From NCBI GenBank assembly GCA_025526935.1, contig JAHLKD010000040.1:310001-374000 (forward strand): a stretch of DNA of 64,000 nucleotides. Direction: 5' to 3'. Below the pieces are notes generated by a model. The model worked only from the letters and a program-made list of their open reading frames with translations. It ran no database searches and was not told where the DNA came from. The DNA is from Cladochytrium replicatum (taxonomy: Eukaryota > Chytridiomycota > Chytridiomycetes > Cladochytriales > Cladochytriaceae). Positions 1,799-32,912 of the stretch are shown here, piece by piece. The number at the start of each line of letters is the position of its first letter. Positions within the stretch are counted from its first letter, which is position 1. The translations under genes and the position numbers were made by a program.

Positions 1799-4700
1799 AT
1801 GTCGCTGTTCAGAGCGGAAGACATCAGCCTGATCCAGCTGTACATCCCCCTGGAAATTGCCCAACCCACCGTTGCCGAGCTGGGCGAACTGGGCCAGGTC
1901 GAGTTTTTGGATGTGCGTAGGGTGGAATATCCGCTTGTAATGTACGGCTGATCTGTACTTATTTAAAGCTCAACCCGAACGTAAATGCCTTCCAACGAGC
2001 GTTTGTCGGGGAAATCCGTCGTCTAGATGAGATGGAGCGGAAGCTTCGTAAGCATCTGAGAGTTATAACACTTCAGCGTTGGTTGAGCTCGTCCTGCATA
2101 GGTTTCCTTGAGAACCAGATCGAGAAGACCGGGATTAAACCCAAGCCGCTAACAGGAAACCTGTACTACGGCCGTACCCGCACCCAGCAGGAGATCGATG
2201 ACTTGGAAGCAAGGTTGACTGAGCACGAGGCTCGCATCCAGCAGATGAACGAGTCGCAGGATACCCTCCAGAAACGTTACCTTGAGCTCTCCGAGCTTCG
2301 TCAGGTGCTTCGTGAGACCGCCGTCTTTTTCGAGCAGGTAGACGAATTGAAGTCGGTTCTGCAGCAGCTAGGTGACTTATTCTGATGGCAGGCTGAATCG
2401 AGGACCGATGATCCTCTTCTCGTAATTCAGCGTGAAGACTCGCACTTGCTTGCTGGGAATCCTAGCCCAGACCCAGAAGATGCCCAGGATCAGCGAGACA
2501 GTGGCCGCATTAACCTTGGGTATGGCCTCCCAAAAAAACCCCCCCATCTCTCAATGTCCTCAACACTTTATTTATAAAGCTTCGTTGCTGGTGTTGTCCC
2601 TCGCGCACGTATGGGTATCTTTGAGCGCATCCTCTTCCGTGCTCTCCGCGGCAACCTCTACATGAACTTTGCCGAGATCGACGAGCCCGTGACCGACCCT
2701 GGCACCGATGAAGTCGTCCAAAAGAACGTATTCATCATCTTTGCGCACGGTCGCGAGATCCTGCAAAAGATCCGGAAGATCTGCGAGAGCATGGGTGCGA
2801 CACTATATCCCGTCGACTCCCACCCGGAGAAGCGCCGTGAGGACGCCCTGGCTGTGATCTCGCGCATCGAGGATCTGAAGCACGTTCTCGACAGCACGCG
2901 CAACACGCGCCGGATGGAGCTTTCCAAAGTCGCCGAGAGCATTGAAGCGTGGGCCATGATGGTGAAGAAGGAGAAGGCGATCTATCATATCATGAACATG
3001 TTCAATTACGACCAGAACCGCAAGGCGCTGATTGCGGAGGGGTGGTGCCCGACTAACTCTATCAACTCGATCACGTACGCGCTACGTGGTGTGACCGTAC
3101 GTTACGGTTGTGAAGATGTGGTTTGCGGTTTGACTCATTTTGCATGTGTTTAGGAGCGCACGGGCTCAACGATCCCTCCAATCCTGAATGAGCTCCGTAC
3201 GAAGAAGACCAAGCCGACGTTCCACAGGACCAACAAGTTTACGGCTGGGTTCCAGGCTATTGTCGATGCGTACGGCGTCGCCACTTACCAGGAAGTCAAC
3301 CCGGGGTTGTTCACAATCATCAGTTTCCCATTCCTGTTTGCGCTCATGTTCGGTGATGTTGGACACGGGCTGCTGGTTACGGGAGCGCTGGTATATATCC
3401 TGTGGAAGGAGAAAGAGCTAAACGTTAAAAACGGAGGCGAGGTGAGTCTAGATATATAGATTCGAGCGATCACTTAATGTATGCGAACGTCGTTTGCGCT
3501 TGCTAAAAATCAGATGTAAGTTCATTTTGAGTATTTGATGGAAGTAAACCGCCTAATCTGATTTCTACTATTAGGTGGGACATGTTCTTTGGTGGGCGAT
3601 ACATGATCTTCTTGATGGCTCTGTTTTCGGTCTTTACGGGCTTGATCTACAACGATTTGTTCTCGAAGCCGTTGAACTGGTTCGGCACTGGGTACAAATT
3701 CCACACCGAGCACGATCATGAGATGCGAGTGGGTGAGAAGCTTTGGACCTATGCTGTGGGCATCGACCCTGTACGTCTCGTTCGATTATTCTCGCTTCCG
3801 ACATAAGATTCTGACCCGCTTTCACCTGTAGGCTTGGCAGTTGGCGGAGAACAAGCTCCTCTTCCTCAACTCGTACAAGATGAAGATGGGTATCATTTTT
3901 GGAGTGATGCAGGTTTGCCCATAGATGGAGGCAAGACAGCCTTCTGTTAGGCTCACAGTTGGTTTACAGATGATCTTTGGACTTACGATCCAGATCTTCA
4001 ACCACATCCACTTCAAGCAAGTACAGTACATATATGCCGAGACAATCCCACAGATTCTCTTCACGGTGTCGATCTTTGGGTACCTCGTCTTCATGATCTT
4101 GTACAAGTGGTCTGTCGACTGGCTCGCGGTCGGGCTGAACCCGCCCAGCTTGCTCAACACATTGATCTATATGTTCCTCGCTCCGGGCTCAGTTGCACCG
4201 TCTGAAGTGCTTTTCCCGGGACAGGTAAGACACCACAACCACACATACAATCCATGAGTTCATCGAATTCGTCTGCAGGCCGCACTCCAGGTATTCTTGG
4301 TTCTGCTCGCGTTGCTTTGCATCCCTTGGATGCTGTGTGCCAAGCCGTATCTGATCTGGAAGGAGTCGGTGCGTCATCGGCTTCAGGGGTACGACAATGT
4401 GCAGGGGAACCGAGACTCGTTGGACTCTGACCGGACCGGAGAGGTCACGCCACACAATGGGGACGGCGGCCACGGAGGTGAAGGAGGTGGTGGCGAAGGG
4501 CACGGGGAGCACGAGGAGTTTTCGGAGGTGGTGATCCATCAGGTGATCCACACGATCGAGTTTGTTCTCTCGTCGATCTCGCATACGGCGTCGTACTTGC
4601 GGCTCTGGGCGCTCTCGCTCGCGCACGCACGTGAGCTTAAGCAGCACATGGCTCGATCCGAACGACTTTCTGACGTTTTTTGTTGCAACTAGAGCTCTCG

Positions 4701-5032
4701 GAAGTTTTGTGGGACATGGTCCTTGCGAACGCGTTCACGATGAAAGGCGTCGGCGGCACGATCGCGTTGTACATTGCGTTCGGAGCGTGGTTCTATCTGA
4801 CTGTGTGCATCTTGATCGGAATGGAAGGGTTGTCGGCGTTCTTGCATGCGCTGCGATTGCATTGGTATATTGCTGGCTTTTTGAGGTGGTGGGTTTGGGG
4901 CCATGTATTGATTCAAAATTTGTTTCTTGTAGGGTCGAGTTCAACAGCAAGTTTTATGGAGGTGGTGGACGGGCGTTTATACCGTTTGCGTTTGCGGATT
5001 TCGTGGAGGCGAATGGTGGCCCGGCTGAGTAG
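1799..5032 (+). CDS. VPH1: V-type proton ATPase subunit a (V0 sector), 13 exons
   Basis: This is the large membrane subunit of the V-ATPase, which carries the half-channels for proton transfer and acidifies vacuole, Golgi and endosomes. Splicing at 1912/1969, 2047/2102, 2337/2392, 2519/2580, 3096/3154, 3441/3514, 3515/3575, 3770/3832, 3912/3970, 4224/4279, 4630/4693 and 4864/4933 gives 2520 nt, an uninterrupted 839-residue protein, the normal family length. Family motifs are present in order: [98 protein letters not shown], and [17 protein letters not shown] with the essential transmembrane Arg. The start at 1799 fits the family N-terminus. A Gly/His-rich insert follows GEVTPHNGD before the last membrane segments. 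One exon is only two bases long (separate entry). No frame break is seen. Confidence 0.96.
3514..3515 (+). other. 2-nt micro-exon (AT) in the V-ATPase a gene
   Basis: The exon ending at 3441 closes on a complete Glu codon (GGE) with a GTGAGT donor. The next long exon starts at 3575 with G-TGG-GAC, so two bases are missing from the frame. Between them CAG|AT|GTAAGT at 3511-3521 supplies exactly AT, giving Glu-Met-Trp-Asp. The family has E-M-(F/W) at this point before the GRY motif. The flanking introns (3442-3513 and 3516-3574) are 72 and 59 nt, normal for this window. Only with these two bases does the whole gene stay in frame. Confidence 0.8.
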
Positions 5033-5234
5033 AAATTTCGAGGGCGCAACAGTTCTTTTCATGGAAGAGGCGATTACTTTTTTAATTAATTACAGAAAGT
5101 TGAGCCCCCCCCCCCCCCCCCAACAAAAAAAAAAAAGGAAGAGAGTTCATGTCAAAACAGTTTGAATATACAGCACTAGTCAAAATGCGAAACTATCGGC
5201 AACTCGGTATGCAATTTGACTATCAAAGAGGCAA
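5033..5234. repeat. 3' region with poly-C/poly-A homopolymer run
   Basis: The stretch after the V-ATPase stop contains a run of C followed by a run of A around 5105-5136. It is a low-complexity tract, prone to length error in sequencing, and lies between the convergent ends of the V-ATPase gene and the minus-strand hypothetical gene. Confidence 0.6.
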
Positions 5235-8015: not shown

Positions 8016-9333
8016 ATGGCTTCGGGGAAAGACTTTCGACCCCCGGAAAAAGCACCGCAATTTTCTGCGGTGCTGCTGAAATGGGCGAGCTTGGGTTTCT
8101 TGGTCGTACAGGTAATGTTTATCTAGGTCAGCCTCAGTTCTATGTTTTCTAAACGTTCTCAATAGAATTCGGGGTTGGTAATTGCAATGCGATATTCCAG
8201 ACTATCGAGCGATCGCTACGAGCCCGCTACCGCCGTTCTCATCAGCGAAATTCTAAAATTTGTATTATCCATCATCATTTTCCGATTTTCTCAACCCCCG
8301 GTTGGTCTCAACCCCGAAGACAAGGAACGGCTCTCGCCAGTCGACATAAACGATTCCAACGACAAAAAAGATGACAATTCGACGAAAAGGCCAACATATC
8401 TCCGAGAGCTCGCTCGTTATTCTGCTTTGTCTGAGGATTGGAAGGTGGTCACGATTCCAGCGGTGGTCTACTACCTTCAGAACAATTTGCAGTACATCGC
8501 CATGTCACACCTTCAGGTCGCCACTTTCCAGGTGCTCTATCAGCTGAAAGTTCTGACCACGGCACTTTTTTCTGTGTGGCTACTTCGGAGACAGCTGTCC
8601 AGCACAAAATGGCTCGCGCTATTGCTGCTGGCGGGCGGTGTTGCATTCGTTCAGCTTTCCTTGTCCCAGGAGTCATCTCCGACAATGGAGGAAGGTTCAG
8701 CGCCAGATCATGCGGGTCATGTTGGAGCGGTTGACAACAATCTGTTCAATAACAACGACAACGAGCTGAACCTCCCAACACCGTGGTGGCATTTGGACAG
8801 CGTCGGTTCACGGTCATCACAGGCGCTAGGAGTCGTGGCGGTCGTGATTGCGTGTGTTCTGTCGGGATTTGCTGGTGTGTGGTTTGAAAAGTTGCTGAAG
8901 AAGTCAAAGGTTATCGTTCTTTTCGTTGTACCCTGCAATCTTTGGAGGTGATACTAAGTATGGCGAACAGCTTTTTGGCGTTGCTTACTGTTTTACCGCA
9001 GTGTGGTCGGCATATGGTCATGCACCTTCGTTTACGGAGTTTTTCAGGGGATACAACAGTTGGACATACGTTACGATTCTCTCGCAGGCGCTGGGAGGAC
9101 TTCTTGTGTCACTTGTTGTTCGGTGAGCTCAAAGTCGTTGACGCATCAGAACTATGTTGATCTTTGTCTTCAGTTTTGCAGACAACATTTTGAAGGGGTA
9201 TGCAACATCCGTCTCCATCATATTATCATGCATCGCATCGGTATACTTGTTTGACTTCCACCTAAGTCAGACATTTATCTTAGGGGTTGTACTCGTCTTG
9301 GCATCCACAGTCATGTACTCAACTGACAAATGA
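8016..9333 (+). CDS. Nucleotide-sugar transporter (SLC35A, UDP-galactose/CMP-sialate type), with internal lesion
   Basis: A Golgi nucleotide-sugar antiporter of about ten membrane helices. Exon 1 (8016-8111) and exon 2 (8166-8909) give KWASLGFLVVQ, NSGLVIAMRYSR, YEPATAVLISEILKF, YYLQNNLQYIAMSHL, TFQVLYQLKVLTTALFS and SGFAGVWFEKLLKK, all typical of SLC35A. The reading frame then changes: LSFFSLYPAIFGG, FFRGYNSWTYVTILSQALGG and, after an intron (9123-9173), FADNILKGYATSVSIILSC lie in another frame. The segment that should join them, with the family W-x-R-N-x-Q motif, cannot be found around 8890-8912. A short deletion with frameshift, or a missing small exon, is the simplest reading. The last residues are STVMYSTDK, stop at 9331. 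Substrate cannot be told from sequence. It may be a recent pseudogene or an assembly error. Confidence 0.8.
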
Positions 9334-16774: not shown

Positions 16775-17308
16775 GAAATTGCAAAAAAAAATTCTCTTCA
16801 CAATCTCTGAGCACAACCTCATTTTACTACAGATTCTCAGACGTGGTCATAGATGTAACTTATATTAAAAAAGAACGCTATCCCCATTTTGCTTTCGTGT
16901 GAAATCGAGACACAACCACTGAATATGGGATCAGGAAGCGCCGCATTTTGTCTTTGTTGTTAAATGCCTAAAATATGACCTTGCTTCTTTTTGGTAGAAT
17001 GTATTTGTGCTAGCTCTGTCCGCTGTAGATAATATGATTGGAGCTGTGTGAGCTCCATGGGGAATTCGGAACATTAACCCCATTGTTAATGTTGGGTCCC
17101 GCTCGGAGGTGCTAAATTGTACCTGGCAATGCAATCAGATGATGCAACTTCCAGAACGATTTCGAAATTTCATATTATTACTATTAATAATACTCAACTC
17201 AAAAATGACGTTACGAATGTCATCAACCCCGCCCCAAATCCATTTTCGCGTCCTTTAAAAGCGCGTTTTCGTGTGCAGTTTCTCCGCTCACCAATAACCA
17301 GATCAAGC
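16775..17308. promoter_or_regulatory. Intergenic region upstream of oxidoreductase copy 1
   Basis: AT-rich, no gene seen. A TTTAAAA element near 17253, about 55 bases before the start codon, could serve as a weak TATA box. The last 35 or so bases before the ATG resemble the leader of the second oxidoreductase copy. Confidence 0.4.
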
Positions 17309-18337
17309 ATGTCATCTCACAAAGCAGCCGTCATCCCTGCGAAAGAAGCAAAGCACGTCATCGAGGACGTCCCCACTCCCTCTCCTGGTTCTAAAGAGGT
17401 TCTGATCAAAGTCGAAGTGGCCGCGACCAACCCAGTGGACTGGAAGATTGGCAAATACGGTGTCTTCATTTCTGGATTCCCTTACATTCTCGGTGTGGAT
17501 GGTGCCGGCATTGTCGTAGAAACAGGCTCAGAAGTTACGCGACTGAAGAAGGGCGACCGCGTTGCGGTGTATTCGGACATCTTTGACAAGCGCTACAACA
17601 CATACCAGGAGTACGCGCTTGCCAATCCAGATATCGCATTCCGCGTTCCTGAGAACATCTCGTTCGAACAGGGCTCGACGATCCCGCTCGGATTCTTCAC
17701 TGCCGTGGACTTGTTGTACCTTACACTCAACCTACCTCTTCCTGACCCGAAAGCCTCTCGATCTACCCCGTTGAAACCTGACGCGGAGACAGTCCTGGTC
17801 TGGGGCGCCGCGTCTTCGGTTGGACAATATGCCGTCCAGCTCGCCAGGCTCTCCGGCTTACGCGTCGTCGCGACTGCCTCTGCCCACAACTTTGACCTTA
17901 TTCGATCCCTCGGCGCATCGGAAGTGTTTGACTACAAAGACGCCGACGTCGTCGCAAAGATTAAAGCCGTCGCACCGAAACTGCGGTACGGTGCTGACGC
18001 CGTCGGAGGCGCGGACAAGGTTGCAGAAGCGATCGGACCCGATGGCGGAGAGGTATCTACAGCGCTCCATGCGCCTCCGAGCCCACGTCCTGAGGTCAAG
18101 ATTTTGGGCGTGTTTGCTGGTAAGGTGCACAATAACGACGGGAAGAATGAGCACGCCGCACAGGTCGCGCAGACACTCGTGAACTACACGGAGGAGTGGC
18201 TCAAGACTGGTGATATCACGCCCAACAAGACTCTGGTTGTGCCCGGCGGGTTGAGTGGAGTTGACGAAGGGTGGGCTTTGAACTCAAAAGGTGTTTCCGG
18301 AGTGAAGGTTGTCCACATTATTCACTCTCACTCATGA
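17309..18337 (+). CDS. Zinc-less MDR oxidoreductase (enoyl/quinone reductase, ToxD-like), copy 1
   Basis: An NAD(P)H-dependent medium-chain dehydrogenase/reductase of the zinc-binding-lacking group often annotated as ToxD-like or trans-enoyl reductase. The 342-residue protein is intron-less. It has the GroES-like N-terminal domain (AATNPVDWKIGKYG, PYILGVDGAGIVVETG, KKGDRVAVYS) and a Rossmann domain with the nucleotide-binding stretch VWGAASSVGQYAVQLAR followed by GASEVFDYKD. Catalytic zinc ligands of alcohol dehydrogenases are absent. The ATG at 17309 is chosen because copy 2 has the equivalent Met; the frame is open further upstream without family similarity. The natural substrate is unknown. 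It is the first of a tandem set. Confidence 0.9.
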   Translation: MSSHKAAVIPAKEAKHVIEDVPTPSPGSKEVLIKVEVAATNPVDWKIGKYGVFISGFPYILGVDGAGIVVETGSEVTRLKKGDRVAVYSDIFDKRYNTYQEYALANPDIAFRVPENISFEQGSTIPLGFFTAVDLLYLTLNLPLPDPKASRSTPLKPDAETVLVWGAASSVGQYAVQLARLSGLRVVATASAHNFDLIRSLGASEVFDYKDADVVAKIKAVAPKLRYGADAVGGADKVAEAIGPDGGEVSTALHAPPSPRPEVKILGVFAGKVHNNDGKNEHAAQVAQTLVNYTEEWLKTGDITPNKTLVVPGGLSGVDEGWALNSKGVSGVKVVHIIHSHS

Positions 18338-18531
18338 GGAGTTTTATAATAGCATCGCGTGTGTGTACAACGATCATAGATGACCCTCGTCCGTCCCTTC
18401 CCTCTTTGCTGAGTGCTGAGTATTTTATCAACGTTGACCAATAACACAATAATGTGATAAAAAATTCTGCCCACAAATCTATAAAAATGGCACTACTCCC
18501 AGTTTCTCCGCTCACCATAGCCAGATCAAGC
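18338..18531. promoter_or_regulatory. Promoter of oxidoreductase copy 2 with TATA-like element
   Basis: A TATAAAA element lies at 18480-18486, just ahead of an in-frame ATG at 18487. The bases before the chosen start (18532) repeat the leader of copy 1 (TTTCTCCGCTCACCA...CAGATCAAGCATG), so the duplication unit included the 5' leader. Confidence 0.55.
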
Positions 18532-19560
18532 ATGCCATCTCACAAAGCAGCCGTCATCCCTGCGAAAGAAGTAAAGAACGTCATCGAGGACGTGCCCACT
18601 CCCACTCCCGGTCCCCAAGAGGTTCTGATCAAAATCGAAGTTGCCGCGACCAACCCCGTGGACTGGAAGGCCGGTAAATACGGCGTCTTTATTCCTGGAT
18701 TCCCATACATTCTTGGTGTTGATGGCGCCGGCATTGTCTTCGAAACTGGCGCGGGTGTCACACGCGTTAAGAAGGGAGACCGGGTTGCAGTGTTCTCCAC
18801 CATTGTCGACAAGCGATACAACACATACCAGGAGTACGCACTAGCGAACCCAGAAGTCGCATTCAGGATCCCGGAAAACATCTCGTTCGAACAGGGATCG
18901 ACAGTACCGTTGGGATTCTTCACTGGCGTGGACCTATTGTACCTTGCCCTAGGCTTCCCTCTTCCCGACGCAAAAGCTTCACGATTTACGCCGTTGAAGC
19001 CTGACGCTGAGACCGTATTGGTATGGGGCGCTGCGAGCTCGGTCGGACAGTACACTGTACAGCTCGCGAGGCTCTCCAATCTACGTGTGGTCGCCACAGC
19101 TTCGGCGCACAACTTTGACCTCATCCGATCCCTCGGTGCGTCCGAAGTGTTTGATTACAAAGATCCCGATGTAATCGCAAAGATCAAAGCCGTCGCGCCG
19201 AACCTGCAGTACGGAATTGACACGGTCGATTTGGACGGGAGCTCGGACAAGATTGTACAATCGATCGGACCTGATGGCGGCGAAGTGTCAACTGCACTTT
19301 CGGCTCGTCCGAGCGCGCGTCCCGAGGTCAAGATCACAAGTGTGTTTGCTGGTAAGGTGCACAACCTTGACGGCAAGAATGCGCATGCTGCACAGGTCGG
19401 GCAAGCTTTGGTCAACTTCGCGGAGGAGTGGCTCAAGACCGGTGAGATCGTGCCGAACAAGACATTGGTGGTGCCCGGTGGGTTGAGTGGAATCGACGAG
19501 GGATGGGCTTTGAATTCCAAGGGCGTTTCAGCTGTCAAGGTGGTCCATATCTTAGGTTGA
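18532..19560 (+). CDS. Zinc-less MDR oxidoreductase, copy 2 (tandem paralogue)
   Basis: Same family and length (342 residues) as its upstream neighbour, with close sequence identity through both domains: AATNPVDWKAGKYG, YILGVDGAGIVFETG, KKGDRVAVFS, VWGAASSVGQYTVQLAR and GASEVFDYKDPDV. It is intron-less and intact. The C-terminal half differs slightly in length near DTVDLDGSSDK. An alternative start at 18487 would add 15 residues; the internal Met equivalent to copy 1 is preferred. The copies lie head-to-tail 194 bp apart, so a local tandem duplication is likely. Function as in copy 1: an NAD(P)H-dependent reductase of unknown substrate. Confidence 0.9.
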   Translation: MPSHKAAVIPAKEVKNVIEDVPTPTPGPQEVLIKIEVAATNPVDWKAGKYGVFIPGFPYILGVDGAGIVFETGAGVTRVKKGDRVAVFSTIVDKRYNTYQEYALANPEVAFRIPENISFEQGSTVPLGFFTGVDLLYLALGFPLPDAKASRFTPLKPDAETVLVWGAASSVGQYTVQLARLSNLRVVATASAHNFDLIRSLGASEVFDYKDPDVIAKIKAVAPNLQYGIDTVDLDGSSDKIVQSIGPDGGEVSTALSARPSARPEVKITSVFAGKVHNLDGKNAHAAQVGQALVNFAEEWLKTGEIVPNKTLVVPGGLSGIDEGWALNSKGVSAVKVVHILG

Positions 19561-29177: not shown

Positions 29178-32100
29178 CTATTGTTTGACAGCACCCATAC
29201 GGTGCAACTCATCCCAGAAAGCTTTGTAAGCTCTATGCGGCACCTGCATCACCAGCGCGAACACAATCACCCCAACAAGATCGATAAACCCCGTCGCAGC
29301 AGCCTGAAACATCCACTTTGGCGCAAACACGCTCCACACCATCAAGTGCCGTCTGAACACACCAGCGAACACTGTCGACACCGTCACGACCGCACCCTGC
29401 ACGATCCCGGCCCACACCGTCCACTGCCTGGCCAATTCCGCCGCACACCTCACCTCACTCGACCCGTTCCCACCGCCTACGACCCAGAACGGGCGATTCC
29501 AGAAGATGAGGAGCGGGATATAGATTGCGCAGAGGAGTTGGGAGGGGAATGTGGACAGGAGAACGTTGAGAGGCGAGAGCAGCCAGGAGACTTTGTCGAG
29601 GCCGATGAAGGCGAGTTCCCATTGGATGGAGGTAAGTGTGAACTGGTGGCCGGTTGCGAAGAAGAGGCGCTGGGCGAGGAGGGAGGTGTAGGTCGCGGAG
29701 AGGAAGAGGAGGGAGAGGGAGGGTGTTGTAGAGATGATAACGGAGGGAAGTGAAGGGGTGGAGACGGCGGGCACGGGTTCTGTTGGAGTAGGTGTCGTGG
29801 TGTCAGCTGGCAATTCGGATTTCGAGGGTTGCTTCTCGGATTGTTGTTGTTGCAGGATGCGTCGTCTGATTGTCTCGCCGATGTTGATGGGCGTGCTTGG
29901 TTTCAAAGCTGCCTTTCGCTCTGAGAGTTCATGTTTCACCTGTACTCTCCGCTCCTCAAGGCGTAGCTCAGTAAACAGATCGAGGGCGAGCACGAGCTGC
30001 ACAAACAAGAGCGAAAACGCTAGTGCGCCCATGGGTTTTTGGAAGATCGCGAGGATGGCGTAACAGATGATGAAGAACACAAAGTAAGAAGAACTGAGGG
30101 TGTTGGCGACACCGGTGAGGAGGAGTGCTCTTCTGTTCTGTGAAGGGTCGCGGTCTGAGGGTCCGACGACGCGGAGACCAATGTTGAGGGGGTTTGACGA
30201 CCACGCTGTGAGACTGACCACGCTTAGTGCTAAGAAAAGGATCCTGGCCCACCACACCTTAACGCGAACGAGGTATGTGAGGTCCCCAACGAGGATGTTG
30301 TGGCCTTCCAAAGAGTCCAAGGCCCAGTAAATCCAGCCTGCACAGAGAACGACGGGAGAGATGAAAGTGGCGACCAGCTTCCCTGTTGACGTGTAGCTTT
30401 CGATGTCCTTGAGTGCTCGACGTGACACGAGGGCGGCCATGGGGATCGCGAAGACGAGAATCATGGTGACGAACAGACTCGCATAGGTTTTGTTTGGCGA
30501 TGCGTTGTACGTGGGAACGCAGAATGGTGCCATTTCTTGACGGCACACCGTCGACATCTGTGTGAGTCGATTCAAAACGATAAGGATGACGGAGATAATG
30601 AGCACACGGAGTCGGGGACGACGCCCTTGCTTTTTCGAGGATGATGATTCTTTGTCGTTCTCGATTGGGATGGCGACGTGGGGGGGAAATGTCAAGAGAC
30701 CTCGGATAAGGTTGAGGAAGCCAAAGGTTTGGAGAATGAAGACAGTAGTCCGTTCTTCCCAGATCGTGTAGCTGTCTGATGCGGGTGATGTTGCGTGGAG
30801 TACAAGAAGAAGGATTCCGGTTCCCCAATTCCAAGCATTTTGGATATTGGTAACCTCCCATTGACCTCTGAGAAAGCTTTTGAGAAACTCCAACGATTTC
30901 GAGTGAGAAGTGATTGGTGATACTCTCACCACCCACACAAGGAAAGATATCGCAAATCCAACAGCACAGAAAAACAATGCCTCGTGGACACGAGTAAAGG
31001 CAGAATCGATTGAGCGGCAAAGCGATCTAACGATCGAGCCGAATAATCCAGTGATCCCAAGTGTTGCGCCGAATCCCGCGAATTGCAAGAAGCTCAATAC
31101 CGGCACCTCTTCGATACGTGCCCAAGTGCTCGATGTGACGAGAGCAACCGACAAAACCAAACTAAGCGCGAGTACAACAACGCCAGCTCCCATTAACACG
31201 AGATCGAACTGTGCCCACACCCTTCGAGCTTTTGCCAAAGTAGTTCTGGTGAAGTAAATGTAAGCGGCACCAGCTCGAGCGAATTTCTCAAGTATCGTGT
31301 TGTCCAGTTCAGCGTCGCCAATGAGTCTGGTTTCCAGGTCTGTAAACGCTTGTTCCGATATCGCGTCAGCCTCTTTAAGTAGTTTCTCGAGGACATCCAT
31401 CTCGAACTCGGATGAGCCCCGCTGTTCGGAGTACTCTATCGTGTATCGGTGCAATTGGTATGCATTGATGCGAAGGGCTTTCACTACGTTTACAATTGGA
31501 GAGTCGGACCAAATTCGAGTATTATGGGATATCGGTGGAAGCCAAAAGAGCTCGGGAATGATTGTTCCGAGGTTCCCATGTGGAATGGGAATACCAAGTA
31601 GGAGTGACATGGTTGGAACCAAGTCGATCTGTGCGACAGTGCGATGATTTCCCAGCTTTCCTGAAAATGTGTCACTCAAATAAACTGCTGGTTCGCTTGT
31701 ATCGACATCCTCCAACTTCTTCTCGACCATTTCGAGGAAGACGTCTAATCTCTGACGCTCAGAGCCTTCGTGTCCGCTCCACAATGGCTTCTTGCTGTAC
31801 ATGAAGAGGCCACTATTGACCTCATCTTCGCTGTCACCTCCATGATTGCCCTGTGGATCCATGCCGTGGTCACCAACAACCATGAGGAGCGTGTCATCGT
31901 CGATGGCATCGATGATGTCAGATAGGACGGTATTCATTTGACGAAGCTTGGCAGACATGGCCGGATGGTCAGGGCCCCACGTATGTCCGCAATGATCTAC
32001 GCCGAGGAAATGGGCAATCAAAAAGCTCCAACGATCTTCTGGCTTGTCGCTCTTTGATTTCTCGAGGAATGGGAAGATGTGCTTGATGCAGCCATCGTCA

Positions 32101-32912
32101 ACGGTGTCGAGGTCTTTCACGTCCAGAGACGGATAGGGAAAGCTGATGTTCATAGATTGCTGGAATACGCCAACCCAAGTATCGTCGCCCATGAACACCA
32201 CCGGGCGAAGTAGAGCGTTGAGTTGATCGACAATGTTGTCCTCGTTAATCGCGGATCCACCGAAATTGCTTCCCATATCTACAAATGTCGGCAAAGTTCC
32301 TGTCGTCAACCCCTTGATTCTCTGCAGTGTAGTTGTCGGCGGATCTGCACGAGCACGAAAGAGGAGCGAGTTTGCAGGCTGGTTTTTCACAAGGTCACGA
32401 AATATGGGGAGTTTGTTGATAAAGTGTGGGACGATGTTGGGATCGTCCACAACATCAAAATGAGCTTGGGATGTCGCGTTTGCCTTCTCCGCAAGATCAT
32501 CGTTCCAGACCGTAAAATCGTACCGCAATGCATCGATCAGCACAAAAACAGCTTTGGAATATCGTGCTGGGAACCAGCACTCATTTCGGTCGGAATAGAA
32601 CTGTGTGCCATTTGCAAAACCCTCTGGGCCAGGAGGATTCAAGCATGTGCTTGTGCTGTTGAGCTCATTCCTGGAGAGCAAGAACCCGCTGCCAAACAAG
32701 TACAATCCAATGATGTGGTAGGCGAACAAAGCGACCGCAATTGTCACAGCTGGAGCATAGACGGTGGGACTTCTCTTCAGCGCAGCGATGCTGAATTGGC
32801 CAACCGTGTTTGTTCCACTCAGAAACACTTCGGGAGCTTCTTCTTCCGCAGATGGCGCTGGGACCTTTGTTCTTTTAGTTTTTGTTTTGAAACCGACGGC
32901 GGGACCCTTCAA
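29178..32912 (-). CDS. GPI13: GPI ethanolamine phosphate transferase 3 (PIG-O/Gpi13)
   Basis: PIG-O/Gpi13 adds the ethanolamine phosphate to the third mannose of the GPI precursor in the ER, through which proteins are attached. The single exon encodes 1244 residues, longer than the usual 1000-1100. The alkaline-phosphatase-like catalytic domain is luminal, after a first helix (about residues 52-72). Metal and nucleophile motifs are AVFVLIDALRYDF (Asp127), RADPPTTTLQRIKGLTTG, LGVDHCGHTWGPDHPAM, and VGDHGMDPQGNHGGDSEDE. PTMSLLLGIPIPHGNLGTII closes the domain. About a dozen membrane helices follow. A Gln/Ser/Pro-rich insert (about residues 1030-1085) accounts for part of the extra length. It lies tail-to-tail with TM9SF (200 bp) and head-to-head with SMC2. 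Lack of introns contrasts with the neighbours. Confidence 0.93.
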   Translation of the reverse strand: MKGPAVGFKTKTKRTKVPAPSAEEEAPEVFLSGTNTVGQFSIAALKRSPTVYAPAVTIAVALFAYHIIGLYLFGSGFLLSRNELNSTSTCLNPPGPEGFANGTQFYSDRNECWFPARYSKAVFVLIDALRYDFTVWNDDLAEKANATSQAHFDVVDDPNIVPHFINKLPIFRDLVKNQPANSLLFRARADPPTTTLQRIKGLTTGTLPTFVDMGSNFGGSAINEDNIVDQLNALLRPVVFMGDDTWVGVFQQSMNISFPYPSLDVKDLDTVDDGCIKHIFPFLEKSKSDKPEDRWSFLIAHFLGVDHCGHTWGPDHPAMSAKLRQMNTVLSDIIDAIDDDTLLMVVGDHGMDPQGNHGGDSEDEVNSGLFMYSKKPLWSGHEGSERQRLDVFLEMVEKKLEDVDTSEPAVYLSDTFSGKLGNHRTVAQIDLVPTMSLLLGIPIPHGNLGTIIPELFWLPPISHNTRIWSDSPIVNVVKALRINAYQLHRYTIEYSEQRGSSEFEMDVLEKLLKEADAISEQAFTDLETRLIGDAELDNTILEKFARAGAAYIYFTRTTLAKARRVWAQFDLVLMGAGVVVLALSLVLSVALVTSSTWARIEEVPVLSFLQFAGFGATLGITGLFGSIVRSLCRSIDSAFTRVHEALFFCAVGFAISFLVWVVRVSPITSHSKSLEFLKSFLRGQWEVTNIQNAWNWGTGILLLVLHATSPASDSYTIWEERTTVFILQTFGFLNLIRGLLTFPPHVAIPIENDKESSSSKKQGRRPRLRVLIISVILIVLNRLTQMSTVCRQEMAPFCVPTYNASPNKTYASLFVTMILVFAIPMAALVSRRALKDIESYTSTGKLVATFISPVVLCAGWIYWALDSLEGHNILVGDLTYLVRVKVWWARILFLALSVVSLTAWSSNPLNIGLRVVGPSDRDPSQNRRALLLTGVANTLSSSYFVFFIICYAILAIFQKPMGALAFSLLFVQLVLALDLFTELRLEERRVQVKHELSERKAALKPSTPINIGETIRRRILQQQQSEKQPSKSELPADTTTPTPTEPVPAVSTPSLPSVIISTTPSLSLLFLSATYTSLLAQRLFFATGHQFTLTSIQWELAFIGLDKVSWLLSPLNVLLSTFPSQLLCAIYIPLLIFWNRPFWVVGGGNGSSEVRCAAELARQWTVWAGIVQGAVVTVSTVFAGVFRRHLMVWSVFAPKWMFQAAATGFIDLVGVIVFALVMQVPHRAYKAFWDELHRMGAVKQ

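Follow-up and report, generated by a model that had tools for sequence, protein, structure and literature searches.

A two-nucleotide exon predicted in a V-ATPase a-subunit gene of Cladochytrium replicatum

The window, i.e. the 64,000-nucleotide stretch of the Cladochytrium replicatum genome analyzed here, harbors on its forward strand a Vph1-like gene for the a subunit of the V-ATPase (1799-5032), which is assigned by a match to PF01496 above the Pfam cut-off. The gene is modelled with 13 exons that amount to 2520 nt of coding sequence including the stop codon and encode 839 residues. Exon 6 (3154-3441), of which 3160-3441 corresponds to Pfam profile positions 335-425, ends in phase 0 with GGC GAG at 3441. 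It is followed by intron 6 (3442-3513; 72 nt, phase 0, position 454.0 when given as residue and phase), which opens with GTGAGT and closes with CAG at 3511-3513. The next two bases, AT at 3514-3515, represent the putative exon 7, before GTAAGT (3516-3521) opens intron 7 (3516-3574; 59 nt, phase 2, position 454.2), which ends in TTAG. Exon 8 (3575-3770; profile positions 429-501) starts with a single G ahead of TGG GAC ATG TTC TTT GGT GGG CGA TAC, and this G would complete codon 455 as ATG (Met) together with AT. Since AT stands between CAG and GTAAGT, AG does not directly precede GT, which sets the locus apart from a zero-length recursive splice site.

The total of 2520 nt and 839 residues is reached only if AT is counted as an exon. 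Upon joining of 3441 straight to 3575, the frame shifts and 454 native residues are followed by 48 foreign ones, with a stop after residue 502. The sequence-only reading from which this analysis departed had proposed the same 13 exons and the same coding length, introns of 72 and 59 nt, the motif CAG-AT-GTAAGT at 3511-3521 between exon ends at 3441 and 3575, and a failing frame without AT; the recomputed gene model reproduced all of this to the base. A different last donor at 4886, which would yield 2541 nt and 846 residues, was ruled out by comparison with the paralogues described below; the donor lies at 4865, in agreement with 839 residues. Shortly downstream of the stop codon, a run of 17 C (5105-5121) is found that precedes an A run by a few bases, a context in which length errors are likely.

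The splice sites around AT were judged against a reference set of 35 introns from three related genes, namely all ten other introns of the window gene as well as 13 of 17 and 12 of 16 from two paralogues elsewhere in the genome (contigs C15 and C13; L009 and L010). The eight of the 43 modelled introns that were left out come from regions of poor alignment or from the vicinity of the divergent C-terminus; there, the aligner also introduced one spurious 4-nt exon (C15) and ignored a stop codon (C13). Because the gene models permit GT-AG introns only, their uniform GT-AG ends elsewhere are no test of non-canonical ends. Length, site-score and shuffle figures refer to this corrected set, apart from the scores given below for the 3452-3519 exon and for the stwintron junctions, which include one misplaced reference intron. 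The reference introns measure 49-73 nt (median 57), into which introns 6 and 7 fit with 72 and 59 nt, while the 133 nt between exons 6 and 8, taken as one intron, would lie 13 standard deviations beyond them. All four sites fall inside the reference range: the donor of intron 6 outscores 28 of the 35 reference donors and its acceptor 15 of 35 acceptors, with corresponding values of 20 and 29 for intron 7. The strongest two sites are the outer pair, i.e. the donor at 3442 (8.7 bits) and the acceptor at 3574 (8.5 bits), and hence direct joining of 3441 to 3575 could compete with inclusion of AT.

The branch sites are less uniform. The fungal branch-site consensus is YTRAY, and such a site lies within the tested range in only 20 of the 35 reference introns. 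Intron 7 contains two candidates, CTAAT and CTGAT, 18 and 13 nt from its end. The candidate in intron 6, TTAAT at 3474-3478, is not followed by any AG before the CAG acceptor, and its A is located 36 nt from the intron end, compared with 8-24 nt in most of the reference introns in which a site of this kind occurs. The T that ends the exon directly ahead of the second donor counts against the AT exon, as only 2 of 35 reference introns share it; this tally and that of the branch distances include one misplaced reference intron.

The outer sites could also belong to one long intron if the assembly had lost two bases or gained one beside the boundary of exon 8. The true gene would then contain a single 133-nt intron at this place. 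We consider such an error very unlikely. All remaining junctions of the gene are in frame, the site is not a homopolymer, and the locus was found as a single copy and thus gives no sign of a collapsed repeat. Moreover, an assembly error leaves unexplained both the strong CAG-AT-GTAAGT motif, matched in only 22 of the 20,000 shuffles described below, and the split of the intervening sequence into 72 and 59 nt.

Frame restoration as such is not a stringent argument. Within 3442-3574, four stop-free AG...GT exons restore the frame, AT being the only one of them whose two flanking introns reach 35 nt or more. When the intron was shuffled 20,000 times with preserved dinucleotides (6 bases fixed at its start and 15 at its end, introns of at least 45 nt, exon of at most 60 nt), a frame-restoring AG...GT exon of any site strength arose 10,385 times and one of 2 nt 2,779 times. 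With sites as strong as those observed, these numbers dropped to 65 for any frame-restoring exon and 22 for a 2-nt exon, of which AT itself accounted for 2. AG and GT dinucleotides are thus common in the shuffles and strong sites rare, so that the case rests on site strength. On the two strands of the 64-kb window taken together, the motif YAGNNGTRAGT occurs once, exactly at the AT exon. A single occurrence in a sequence of this length is ordinary, given a chance mean of 1.52 and at least one copy in 81 of 100 shuffles; what matters is its location.

When one- and two-intron canonical models over 3397-3668 were enumerated, including nested ones and two-step introns of 35-120 nt, the AT model achieved a total of 31.5 bits with a weakest site of 6.3, followed by a runner-up with 23.8 in total that has a weakest site of 0.7 and loses six residues (one misplaced reference intron is included in this scoring). 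The micro-exon interpretation of the sequence-only reading is supported, as the enumerated alternatives come with weaker sites, abnormal intron lengths or a worse protein. Among these alternatives is a longer exon at 3452-3519, which would be preceded by a donor at 3376. It is open in frame and trails the AT model by only 2 points in spliced alignment to the paralogues, but scores of -1.7 for the donor and 0.75 for the acceptor speak against it, as does the deletion of the residues up to 3441, and with yeast Vph1 even the best model without intron 7 scores 33 points below the AT model. Similarly, direct joining of 3441 to 3575 could be accommodated by +1 ribosomal frameshifting, which would, however, drop one residue and finds no other support here. 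Both variants appear exceedingly improbable. That the 68 nt of 3452-3519 inside the intron pair are open in a usable frame by chance is of practical relevance, as a gene predictor could wrongly take them as an exon.

The chief competitor of the AT exon is a reading as stwintrons, i.e. nested introns that are removed in two steps and are known in fungi, where use of the outer sites leads to a +1 frameshift (PMC9024468). In the [D1,2] or [A2,3] form, introns overlapping at an AGT would here be excised to give Glu-Trp without Met. The frame error agrees with this scheme, since splicing at the outer sites only would retain a surplus G, and exon 8 begins with the G that the double [D1,2]/[A2,3] form needs behind the last acceptor. 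In addition, AGT is present at 3519, 3530 and 3543; a fourth one, at 3445, would imply an intron of 5 nt. None of the three usable copies, however, conforms to the canonical junction of HAG and U-R-W-G-Y (PMC9024468, which allows other donors as well). In the [D1,2] form, the scores of the internal acceptor and the external donor are -0.5/3.1, -0.7/0.7 and 1.7/3.1 at 3519, 3530 and 3543, respectively, compared with 6.3/7.6 for the AT exon, and the internal introns would span 79-103 nt, in the last case combined with a 31-nt external intron. For [A2,3], the internal donors reach 1.5, 2.2 and 5.5 bits. The latter, at 3544, is the best single stwintron site and implies an internal intron of 31 nt within an external one of 103 nt. 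As stwintron removal would furthermore omit a residue that is found in the aligned homologues, at a cost of 6.8 Pfam bits, we regard this scenario as very unlikely.

The homologues likewise favor the AT exon. A spliced aligner with free choice of GT-AG introns of 35-200 nt was run at three intron penalties with four homologous proteins, i.e. yeast Vph1 (6m0r), a 7u8o chain and the two in-genome paralogues. It selected the AT exon with all four at every penalty. Relative to it, the best competitor that lacks intron 7 falls short by 33 points with yeast Vph1, by 20 with the 7u8o chain and by 2 with each paralogue; the choice of the AT model thus depends little on the paralogues and largely on the sequences from outside this genome. 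With AT included, the protein aligns to yeast Vph1 without a gap at this site. Position 455 is occupied by Met in the window gene and in the 7u8o chain, by Ile in yeast Vph1 and by Thr in both paralogues. The Pfam score is 292.3 bits with Met, 292.0 with Val, 290.8 with Arg and 285.5 if the residue is absent. The type of residue thus appears only mildly informative, and what is conserved is the presence of a residue. Accordingly, of the conserved Glu-Met pair that had been assumed at this position, the residue itself is borne out by the homologues, but a strong conservation of Met is not. The same figures bear on a single non-canonical intron, either of GA-AG type from 3444 (giving Val) or of GT-TT type to 3572 (giving Arg). 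Val is nearly equivalent to Met for the profile, but such an intron would measure 131 nt, and the GTGAGT at 3442 ranks above 28 of 35 reference donors. It is therefore hardly to be expected.

Based on the frame, the strength of the sites and the homologues, positions 3514-3515 are probably a constitutive two-nucleotide exon, to which we assign a probability of about 0.86, and we infer that AT is included in the mature mRNA. Probably, the U2 spliceosome recognizes intron 6 (72 nt) and intron 7 (59 nt) as two units, each by pairing across the intron, and excises them one after the other, whereby AT would combine with the next G to a Met codon and the frame would be kept. Sequential removal is suggested by the size of the exon, as two bases are too few to be occupied by acceptor and donor factors at the same time. 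Either order would work, since the acceptor score of intron 6 and the donor score of intron 7 are unchanged by which intron goes first. The remark of the sequence-only reading that exons of two bases are difficult for exon-definition models is a fair point. The puzzle becomes smaller, though, in a gene family with introns of 49-73 nt, where pairing across the intron would be natural and would ask nothing of the exon, so that ordinary sequential removal could suffice. Intron-spanning pairing is indeed stated as the mode for short introns in PMC12403724, which refers to Ascomycota. Given that no other sites are as strong as the outer two, inclusion of AT might alternatively be regulated, with the 2-nt exon switching one of the three V-ATPase a subunits on or off. 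Altered order or rate of splicing could then lead to skipping of AT, a stop after residue 502 and destruction of this isoform. Such a role has a small probability.

Some light on the origin of the constitutive exon is shed by the two paralogues. Ten of the twelve intron positions of the window gene recur in both with residue and phase unchanged, including 454.0, where each paralogue carries one ordinary phase-0 intron (60 and 50 nt). The position 454.2 of intron 7 is absent from both, which have no intron two bases downstream of 454.0. Intron 143.0 of the window gene lies in a gapped stretch of the alignment, with paralogue introns placed nearby, though uncertainly. As 454.0 is common to the three paralogues, the upstream donor is old and the copy-specific event concerns the second intron, which could have been gained two bases downstream in the window copy or lost from the other copies. 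An interval of 133 nt that equals two ordinary introns plus two bases fits a whole-intron gain better than a cryptic exon within a long intron. A loss-and-rescue route, as proposed for Fusarium (PMC12940212), may represent another origin. In the 50.5-Mb genome, only the locus itself matches 3436-3580 in a search that skips very common words, and hence the second intron is not a detectable introner. The C15 and C13 paralogues are closely alike, and both contain introns at 287.0, 318.0 and 711.0 that are absent from the window gene.

For a wider view, the window and 200 kb of contig C1 (264 kb in total) were scanned blindly on both strands for exons of 1-9 nt. A coding-potential filter was dropped, as it had removed all candidates including the V-ATPase exon. 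The scan returned eight distinct candidates, a number that does not estimate their frequency in the genome, since of the seven others only one, in a presumably POP4-like gene, was taken to a clear outcome. The V-ATPase exon ranked best by the combined score of its four sites, and an 8-nt candidate at 49.5 kb surpassed it in the scores of its own two sites. The candidate in the POP4-like gene, one of two others of 2 nt, proved false, as its frame stays open up to one ordinary intron. Elsewhere in the window, an 8-nt candidate (8166-8173) ahead of a nucleotide-sugar transporter frame (8175-8951; PF04142) looked wrong because this family, as we assume, has further residues at that place. Two adjoining same-strand frames at 17117-18337 and 18454-19560 both contain zinc-type alcohol dehydrogenase domains (PF08240, PF00107) and are perhaps a tandem duplicate. 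On the reverse strand, a single 1244-codon frame (29181-32912) matches GPI ethanolamine phosphate transferases (PF01663, PF19316), which is long for a genome whose V-ATPase gene has 12 introns. Chitin synthase N-terminal domains and radial-spoke proteins together mark zoosporic fungi, and the 50.5-Mb genome contains both (seven matches to the fungal chitin synthase N-terminal domain and a radial-spoke protein), in keeping with the chytrid suspected from the letters of the window.

Exons of this size class have published precedents. The closest is a 1-nt exon in the CYP621A P450 genes of Fusarium (Nelson and Syed 2026, PMC12940212), where the apparent intron has 139 nt at a median of 56. As in C. 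replicatum, with 133 nt at a median of 57, this is a fungal nuclear gene in which a tiny exon restores the phase at a conserved protein motif. The two cases differ in exon length (2 nt instead of 1), gene and lineage, and 20 orthologues plus RNA reads stand behind the Fusarium exon. The same paper reports that nearly all CYP621A gene models are wrong at the 1-nt exon site and that exons of 2-5 bp are known in plants and animals. Gene predictors would be likely to overlook the AT exon, and the annotated V-ATPase subunit would then be truncated or altered.

Other fungal examples include 3-nt exons in lipS of Dactylellina (PMC5639578) and a 20-nt micro-exon in Xlr2 of Trichoderma, which is regulated by glucose (PMC11121469). 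These are likewise very small, albeit longer than AT, and in the case of Xlr2 regulated. A paper that names a 2-nt exon in a fungus was not found in the openly licensed literature, among the matches listed. PMC7725694, tried as a precedent, was discarded, as the phrase in question belongs to a table on deletions. In the sago palm, the shortest annotated exon has 2 bp, yet it is located in an uncharacterised gene of an annotation with a shortest intron of 5 bp and is unvalidated (PMC8760474). If confirmed, the AT exon would be the first natural case of a 2-nt exon to be reported from a fungus, as far as the literature was searched, and apparently in a flagellated lineage.

Plant 1-nt exons are well supported for APC11 (PMC4674806) and VPS55 (PMC8831610). 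Like AT, these ultra-short exons are needed for the frame, but they occur in plants, are conserved and were verified by RT-PCR. Guo and Liu attributed the splicing of the APC11 exon to intron definition with sequential removal, which agrees with the mechanism proposed here, and an artificial 2-nt version was spliced in Arabidopsis protoplasts and mis-spliced in rice (PMC4674806). With the fungal [D1,2]/[A2,3] stwintrons, the locus shares two short back-to-back introns, sequential removal as proposed here, and a +1 frameshift upon joining of the outer sites (PMC9024468, PMC12403724). In contrast to stwintrons, whose members share one G and are removed without any base being retained, two bases are predicted to be kept and the canonical junction motif is absent. 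If confirmed, AT would fill a series of intron spacings that comprises stwintrons (-1), recursive sites (0) and 1-nt exons, and would indicate that short-intron genomes tolerate such intron pairs. Taken together, the AT exon is very likely a real and good new example of a rare exon class with published precedents.
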